The position numbers were made by a program, and so were the translations under genes. The notes under the pieces were generated by a model. The model was not told the origin of the DNA, did no database searches, and saw nothing but the letters and a program-made list of their open reading frames with translations. A stretch of DNA of 64,000 bases, from NCBI GenBank assembly GCA_903863935.1, contig CAIPDV010000113.1:43333-107332 (forward strand), written 5' to 3'. The stretch comes from an uncultured Bacteroidota bacterium (GTDB lineage: Bacteria; Bacteroidota; Bacteroidia; JABEUT01). Positions 35,236 to 60,583 of this stretch are shown here, piece by piece. Position 1 is the stretch's first letter. The number at the start of each line of letters is the position of its first letter.

Positions 35236-35259
35236 AAAACCCCGGTTAACCGGGGTTTT
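35236..35259 (+). terminator. Rho-independent terminator after pspC
   Basis: AAAACCCCGGTT/AACCGGGGTTTT perfect palindrome plus T tract. Confidence 0.75.
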
Positions 35260-52173: not shown

Positions 52174-52200
52174 AAAAGGGGGAAGTTACTTCCCCCTTTT
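52174..52200 (-). terminator. Hairpin terminator after OsmC/Ohr gene
   Basis: AAAAGGGGGAAG-tta-CTTCCCCCTTTT perfect 12-bp stem. Confidence 0.65.
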
Positions 52201-59083: not shown

Positions 59084-60583
59084 TTATTTGGCTTTCTTTC
59101 TCTCAAATATACTTATCAGTAAATAGGCTGCACAAACAAGAATAAAAGGCCAGCATGGCATCAAAAACCGGTTGGAGGTAACCCGTAAAATTAATGCATG
59201 AATGGCGATGGTATAGAGTGGGATAATTGAGATTAGTAAAATTAAAGAGTTGTATTTTAATCCCCGGCAGAATAGAAGTAATGAGCCAAGCAAACCAAAA
59301 CCAAGTACCAAATAATAGAAGATTGTAAAACCAATTTCACTCAAGTAGCCTACTATTCCCGGAAGTTGAAATCGTTTGGTGTAGTATTTTACCTCCGGCC
59401 CGAATAAAAACCTCGGTAAGCAATGGAAAAACGGAGCTTGTATATAGTAAAGGAATGGTTTTTCTTCTTTAATAGATTGAGTATATCTGTCCAAGCGCGC
59501 TTTTAATGCCTTTTGATAGACAAGGTTAACATTCCCGGAAGAAGCAACGTAATTAATCATGCTTATCAATACTTTGATCTCGATAAGGCTGTCTTTATTG
59601 AATTTTGAGGTATATATATAATCGGGTAAACTATCCTTATAATCTTTAGGGTCTGGCATTCCATCCAAATGAAAGCCGAACCAAAGTAACGGCGTTTTAT
59701 TATCTGTAAAATCAGCTGATCCACCCCAGGAACGAATGAAGTTTGACAGTGCAGGTTCATATATGTATTCAGCTCTGGGAGCTAGTTTTGCCGAGGTAAG
59801 GAATATTAGCTCATTGTGTTTTTGATAATTCCTCGTAACCCAAATTCCATCGCAAATAAGAAAAGGTAGAATTAAAAGCAATATTTTTTGCCCCAAACCC
59901 CTAAAGGGGCTTTGAATAGTGCTACTCAAAGCTCCTTTAGGGGTTTGGGACCGCCTTTTAAATATTAAAATAACTAGCAATATCAAATAAATAGGCGCAA
60001 ACACTGGCCTCAGAAATATGACCCAAGTGAGAAAAAGTCCTGAAAAAATGAGATGTTTCTTTTCTTCTTTTTCAAAATAGTTGACGAAAAACCATATGGC
60101 AAAAATTAAAGCCGAGGTGCAAAAACTTTCTGTAAGCAGCCAGCCATCGTAAAAGTTGGAGTAGGTGCTGAATAGAAATATGAAGTAGGTTACGTAAAAT
60201 ATCGGAGTACAGTTAAATACCTTTTTCGCAATCAGGGCAAGATAATAAACAGAGATTCCACCAAGAATGAACTGAAATATTAGAAGTAAATTACAAGCAA
60301 TTGCCTGTGAGAAAACAAAGCGGAAAACAAGATAAACGAAGCCATAGCCGGGCATACGGTAATCCGGCGAATACGTGCCATTCTGTAAAAGATTATCAAT
60401 AGGTGCGAGGTAAGTGTGGGTGTCGGTCATTGTGGCACCCCAAAAGCCAGGTATATCTGATGGTGGATAGTTGTGTAACAAAAACAATAGGGGTAACCCT
60501 TTTACAAGTATTCCTAAAACAATCCAGAACCAAGGTTTTGCAGGGTCTTTAAGGAAAATGCTTTTAAGTTTTTGTTGTATCAA
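59084..60583 (-). CDS. Polytopic membrane glycosyltransferase-like (GT39/PMT-like) protein
   Basis: 499 aa, many TM segments, TDTHTYLAPIDNLLQNGTYSPDYRMPGYGFVYLVF. Confidence 0.7.
   Translation of the reverse strand: MIQQKLKSIFLKDPAKPWFWIVLGILVKGLPLLFLLHNYPPSDIPGFWGATMTDTHTYLAPIDNLLQNGTYSPDYRMPGYGFVYLVFRFVFSQAIACNLLLIFQFILGGISVYYLALIAKKVFNCTPIFYVTYFIFLFSTYSNFYDGWLLTESFCTSALIFAIWFFVNYFEKEEKKHLIFSGLFLTWVIFLRPVFAPIYLILLVILIFKRRSQTPKGALSSTIQSPFRGLGQKILLLILPFLICDGIWVTRNYQKHNELIFLTSAKLAPRAEYIYEPALSNFIRSWGGSADFTDNKTPLLWFGFHLDGMPDPKDYKDSLPDYIYTSKFNKDSLIEIKVLISMINYVASSGNVNLVYQKALKARLDRYTQSIKEEKPFLYYIQAPFFHCLPRFLFGPEVKYYTKRFQLPGIVGYLSEIGFTIFYYLVLGFGLLGSLLLFCRGLKYNSLILLISIIPLYTIAIHALILRVTSNRFLMPCWPFILVCAAYLLISIFERKKAK
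59892..59949. repeat. 58-bp near-perfect palindrome inside the 59084..60583 CDS
   Basis: Arms 59892-59919 and 59922-59949: CCCAAACCCCTAAAGGGGCTTTGAATAG vs reverse complement CCCAAACCCCTAAAGGAGCTTTGAGTAG, 26/28 matches, 2-nt loop. Confidence 0.9.

Follow-up and report, generated by a model that had tools for sequence, protein, structure and literature searches.

Rickettsia palindromic elements (RPEs) and the protein-coding palindromes of Wolbachia are dispersed repeats with an open reading frame that lie in frame in unrelated conserved genes (PMC2229807, PMC10969869). REPINs and BIMEs consist of two inverted, conserved short arms around a less conserved core and show no target duplication (PMC3116915). 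Intragenic REPs, and in Bacteroidetes REPs of the CGTC type, have been documented (PMC3733652), and among the Correia/NEMIS elements one length class is open and intragenic while another is not (PMC2229807). In the open literature, with subscription papers outside this coverage, we found no description of the repeat reported here or of in-frame palindromes in Bacteroidota. The element works like the Rickettsia palindromes and is built like a REPIN, and it departs from each of them in a defining respect.

The copy that led us to the family lies in a 64,000-nucleotide stretch of DNA from an uncultured Bacteroidota bacterium, which we analysed as a whole (the window). The initial annotation had reported a near-perfect 58-bp palindrome read in frame within a membrane glycosyltransferase gene, and the letters bear this out: at positions 59892-59949 of the plus strand, 28-bp arms with 26 of 28 positions paired flank a 2-nt centre. 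Alignment to 21 other 60-bp copies sets the limits of the repeat unit at 59891-59950, the outermost pair of which is mutated in this copy (C..A). The unit comprises a left arm on the plus strand (59891-59913, CCCCAAACCCCTAAAGGGGCTTT), which is REP-like, contains a CCCC-TAAA-GGGG core hairpin and is identical to the family consensus; a core (59914-59927, GAATAGTGCTACTC) typical of the 60-bp subfamily in its own genome and in the related genome G005; and a right arm on the minus strand (59928-59950, TCCCAAACCCCTAAAGGAGCTTT), an inverted copy with two changes against the consensus, the two mutations of this copy. With the outermost G..C pair (59890 G, 59951 C), which covaries between copies as A..T or G..C, the element spans 59890-59951. 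The palindrome has a folding energy of -44.4 kcal/mol (z -7.84; 0 of 200 dinucleotide shuffles as good), the arm pattern is expected by chance 0 times in the window, and an Rfam search of the region gave no match. Further perfect or near-perfect palindromes at window positions 35236-35259 (AAAACCCCGGTTAACCGGGGTTTT) and 52174-52200 (AAAAGGGGGAAGTTACTTCCCCCTTTT) are possibly terminators.

To follow the repeat beyond the window, the arm pattern was searched with up to three mismatches, and the reversed pattern served as control, in the 3.8-Mb genome of the organism (G000) and in ten other members of the genus (G001-G010). In G000 this yielded 57 arms, against 0 with the reversed pattern, arranged as 22 inverted doublets and 13 singlets, so that the palindrome is far from single-copy. 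Among the ten other members, arms are frequent in six (G001, G003, G004, G005, G008 and G009); G002 and G010 hold one or two each, and G006 and G007 none. No arm was found in 49 other families of the class, and among 395 other phylum genomes just two had stray arms. When 84,980 species genomes were scanned for the complete palindrome, the only matches were on contigs of a few Bacteroidetes MAGs, and a search of phage and plasmid collections returned no match. The palindrome is thus a member of a multicopy, dispersed family that is essentially restricted to one genus.

The consensus of the 60-bp unit is CCCCAAACCCCTAAAGGGGCTTTGAATAGYRCTATTCAAAGCCCCTTTAGGGGTTTGGGG, and each arm holds a small CCCC-TAAA-GGGG hairpin. 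Doublets of exactly 60 bp account for 15 of 22 in G000 and 7 of 13 in G005; G003 and G008 carry the same arms with other cores, for totals of mostly 62-67, 78-80 or 120-149 bp. The base just outside each end covaries across copies (matches in 44 of 67, against 29 expected; p<0.001), which makes the effective length of the unit 62 bp. Flanks past position 1 do not extend the palindrome, and the outward flanks of copies share a conserved YWRA. No target duplication of 2-12 bp was detected: slight excesses at 3 and 10 bp (p 0.012 for both) lose significance once 11 tests are allowed for. Arms also occur singly or fused to an unrelated hairpin repeat. These parts occur in several arrangements. On contig C10 of G003 (L236:2079-2359) a 63-bp variant is repeated three times in tandem, with a period of 109 bp, and a fourth copy lies roughly 700 bp away. 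Long variants with a palindrome of the CGTCATTGCGAGG or GTCATGTTGAGCCTGTCGAA type nested between the arms occur at L091:9062-9188 and at L247, L249, L250, L253, L262 and L265. Another REP-like repeat, GTCGGAGCCCGACTGGCAATTAT, is matched 45 times in G000 and 52 times in G005; it is often joined to a single arm of the element (L081, L101, L102, L110, L169, L331).

A length of 60 bp is exactly 20 codons. Every one of the 24 copies of 60 or 66 bp has at least one strand free of stops, and in 13 of the 22 60-bp copies both strands are. Insertion in the right phase therefore adds the peptide PQTPKGALNSxxQSPFRGLG, or one near it, and does not kill the gene. In G000 the element is internal and in frame in six ORFs, all of them unrelated genes: those for cysteinyl-tRNA synthetase (CysS), glutamine-dependent NAD synthetase (NadE), the tRNA methylthiotransferase MtaB, a DppD/DppF-type double ABC ATPase, a GT28-like glycosyltransferase and the PMT_2/GT-C glycosyltransferase at 59084-60583. 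Two further copies lie close to N-termini whose start codons are less certain, those of GldB and of a PA0069-type radical SAM protein, and G005 has an internal copy in a methyltransferase related to RlmI/RlmK. The inserts in CysS and NadE are located where solved structures align with a gap, and that in the ABC ATPase lies in the linker between the two ATPase halves as bounded by Pfam; an AlphaFold model of CysS was of low confidence (pLDDT 51 from seven sequences) and was not relied on. NadE of G000 (contig C74, L095:1551-3410) also has a second in-frame insertion at residues ~263-306, RDCFVPRNDG...LRGSAKQS, which reads as a CGTC-type REP (GTCATTGCGAGG.. / ..CTTCGTTCCTCGCAATGAC) plus a fragment of the GCCCGACTGG repeat.

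Counted irrespective of coding density, 14 of the 22 G000 doublets fall outside ORFs of 150 aa or more. Doublets inside such ORFs number 11 of 35 in G000 and G005 together versus 0 of 36 in G003 and G008 (Fisher p 0.00016), and lengths divisible by 3 number 28 of 35 versus 12 of 36 (Fisher p 0.0001), the doublets of G003 and G008 being a sample, not an exhaustive set, from two incomplete assemblies.

The gene that hosts the window copy (59084-60583, minus strand, TTG start) encodes a 499-aa membrane glycosyltransferase of the PMT_2/GT-C family, assigned by Pfam PMT_2. Its frame is open through the palindrome, and the insert encoded by 59891-59950 on the minus strand reads SQTPKGALSSTIQSPFRGLG (residues 212-231). 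An AlphaFold model built from 22 sequences (pLDDT 88.3) has a helix at 197-212, a low-confidence loop at 213-229 with the minimum at 220-222, and a helix at 230-256. This agrees with the loop position between two helices that had been proposed, and the insert is predicted to sit in a flexible, disordered loop between two membrane helices. Foldseek returned GT-C enzymes (PglB, Pmt4, ArnT) at weak E-values only (best 0.0033), consistent with the PMT_2 assignment and no independent proof of it. Homologues of the protein are without the insert, leaving a net excess of ~13 residues in the host protein; since they are at most ~45% identical and the family is multicopy, they may be paralogues. Within its own genome the protein has 20 matches, several of which are merely other palindrome copies; in that genome and in the genus, the PMT_2 glycosyltransferases appear to be an expanded family.

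Filled and empty sites can be compared in other host genes as well. Seven CysS orthologues, 61-81% identical, are without the insert, as are all NadE orthologues recovered. Neither outcome that the initial annotation named as counting against its reading, a single-copy palindrome or ordinary protein sequence shared by orthologues, is what was found. Because the closest relatives are at least 16% diverged at the protein level in most compared genes, insertion junctions are blurred, with net gains of ~13-24 codons and not exactly 20. Three sites are occupied in relatives by eroded or mosaic versions. The ABC ATPase site holds an intact palindrome in G000, an eroded one in G005 (PQTPKGALSSIPQSLREVLGL) and one with about half deleted in G002 (PQTPKEALNKGLGL); in G007 and in species further away there is no insert. 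The MtaB and GT28-like sites are occupied in G000 by an arm-arm palindrome; in G005 the corresponding position has a single degraded arm joined to the repeat GTCGGAGCCCGACTGGCAATTAT. Old insertions at these sites thus erode as protein sequence: the inserts persist, lose symmetry and appear able to swap halves.

Like RPEs, the element lies in frame in several unrelated genes, and orthologues of CysS, NadE and others are without the insert; in this way of working the analogy drawn in the initial annotation stands. Membership of the RPE family does not: RPEs are 105-150 bp long and belong to Alphaproteobacteria/Rickettsiales, whereas this element is 60 bp long, belongs to one Bacteroidota genus and consists of short arms, paired as an inverted doublet, around variable cores, a separation made by length, lineage and organisation. 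With REPINs and BIMEs it shares inverted conserved arms, a variable core, the lack of target duplication, tandem copies and mosaics, and, with REPINs, a singlet:doublet ratio below 2 (13:22 in G000). Unlike canonical REPs, its arm has no GTAG/GTGG foot and begins with CCCC preceded by R. Sequences starting with CGTCATTGCGAGG, as in GTAG- or CGTC-tagged REPs, do occur in G000, one of them nested in the element (L091), but the arm itself has neither tag. The intragenic 60-bp class, next to the remaining length classes in sister species, parallels Correia/NEMIS; Correia elements differ in length (107-155 bp), in having a target duplication and in their host, Neisseria (PMC2229807).

We consider it probable that the palindrome is a dispersed, non-autonomous, REPIN-like repeat, a doublet in which REP-like arms of 23 bp, inverted to each other, enclose a short variable core, with a frame-neutral 60-bp subfamily. 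New copies would arise by transposition of a single-stranded hairpin, which would insert at a TYWR^YWRA-like site and duplicate no target sequence; a Y1/HUH transposase would act in trans, and selection would remove out-of-frame or damaging insertions and keep the in-frame copies. The earlier suggestion of a small mobile palindrome holds as regards dispersed copies and filled versus empty sites, and it is from those sites that we infer the movement itself.

As to the enzyme, Y1 (IS200-type HUH) transposase genes are present in 10 of the 11 genus genomes, with seven matches in G000, and most of the genus Y1 proteins with a readable motif show the signature Y---Q--HH. This signature marks subclass 1.2, whose members are generally without typical flanking structures (PMC6006769). 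The genus Y1 genes contrast with that description in their flanking hairpins: GC-rich hairpins with TAAA/TTTA-type loops accompany those at L198, L199, L206, L209, L217, L218, L222, L223 and L224. GC-rich hairpins occur at 3.92 per kb within 200 bp of Y1 genes versus 0.30 in the window, a 13-fold difference, and 23 of 33 have a TAAA/TTTA/TGAA/TTCA loop, the same plan as the arm core, the TAAA/TTTA loop classes having been chosen after the data were seen. No complete arm lies beside the Y1 genes of the genus, own genome included, so the Y1 connection is a lead. The bare core CCCCTAAAGGGG/CCCCTTTAGGGG occurs near two Y1 genes only (G001 L198 and G008 L197), few enough that chance may account for them. 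Where REPINs have a RAYT-type pairing, here there are Y1 genes with similar hairpins and a core match in two species, none of them the own genome; REPINs with RAYT transposases differ further in that the Y1 enzymes here are mostly Y---Q--HH and many copies are intragenic. The hairpin-flanked Y1 transposases of the genus may nevertheless be what mobilises the element. A bolder form of this proposal is doubtful, though worth stating: a frame-neutral (exactly 60 bp, one or both strands stop-free) REPIN-like Bacteroidota element would have entered coding DNA, the slot would stay switchable by hairpin template switching, interconverting arm-arm palindromes and mosaics of an arm plus another hairpin at the same codon, and the subclass 1.2 Y1 enzymes would be unrecognised transposases.

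The alternative that survives best, though we judge it unlikely, is a classical MITE with terminal inverted repeats of 23-24 bp, mobilised by the DDE transposase of an autonomous element that was lost or has escaped detection. Conserved ends, a variable interior (62-149 bp and more) and many copies would all fit. The lack of a target duplication speaks against it, as do arms that stand alone or are joined to an unrelated hairpin repeat, in the way of REPs in mosaic elements; nor was an inverted arm pair around a transposase gene noticed in the loci viewed, in a non-systematic look at draft contigs that may hide an autonomous element.

Rather less probable still is spread and self-perfection through template switching during replication and gene conversion between the hairpin arms, with no dedicated transposase. 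The two arms of one copy do share rare, non-consensus bases (8 observed, 1.5 expected), and the pairs covary above shuffles, with changes on both sides in 6 of 30 pairs and 5 of 500 shuffles as high. The change at the MtaB and GT28-like sites between arm-arm and arm-plus-hairpin-B mosaic forms points the same way. Such a process covers the repair and swapping of arms in place, but not the arrival of a complete unit at the clean CysS or NadE sites.

We regard a selected function in host genes or transcripts, be it RNA stability, transcription attenuation or a peptide module, as very improbable. The RNA hairpin is strong and its pairing is conserved above control, but such conservation is equally expected of a mobile hairpin, there is no Rfam match, and the inserts sit at linker or terminal positions of unrelated host proteins, are missing from orthologues and erode. 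Despite the open frame, an ordinary protein sequence palindromic by chance is ruled out by the existence of the repeat family, with the same peptide in unrelated proteins and shuffles that never match, and we reject both a chance palindrome and a conserved protein motif as readings of the element.

In-frame mobile palindromes are best known from obligate intracellular Rickettsiales, where weak selection is a natural explanation. Taken as a dispersed REPIN-like repeat, the element described here lies in frame in core enzymes of an environmental Bacteroidota with a 3.8-Mb genome, which suggests that the process is not bound to an intracellular lifestyle. The hairpins near the Y1 genes provide a concrete candidate transposase, and the contrast between the 60-bp subfamily and the other lengths found in sister species is a natural experiment on whether a frame-neutral length allows the colonisation of genes. 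The graded ABC ATPase site, from intact through eroded and half deleted to absent, shows how inserts can become ordinary linker.
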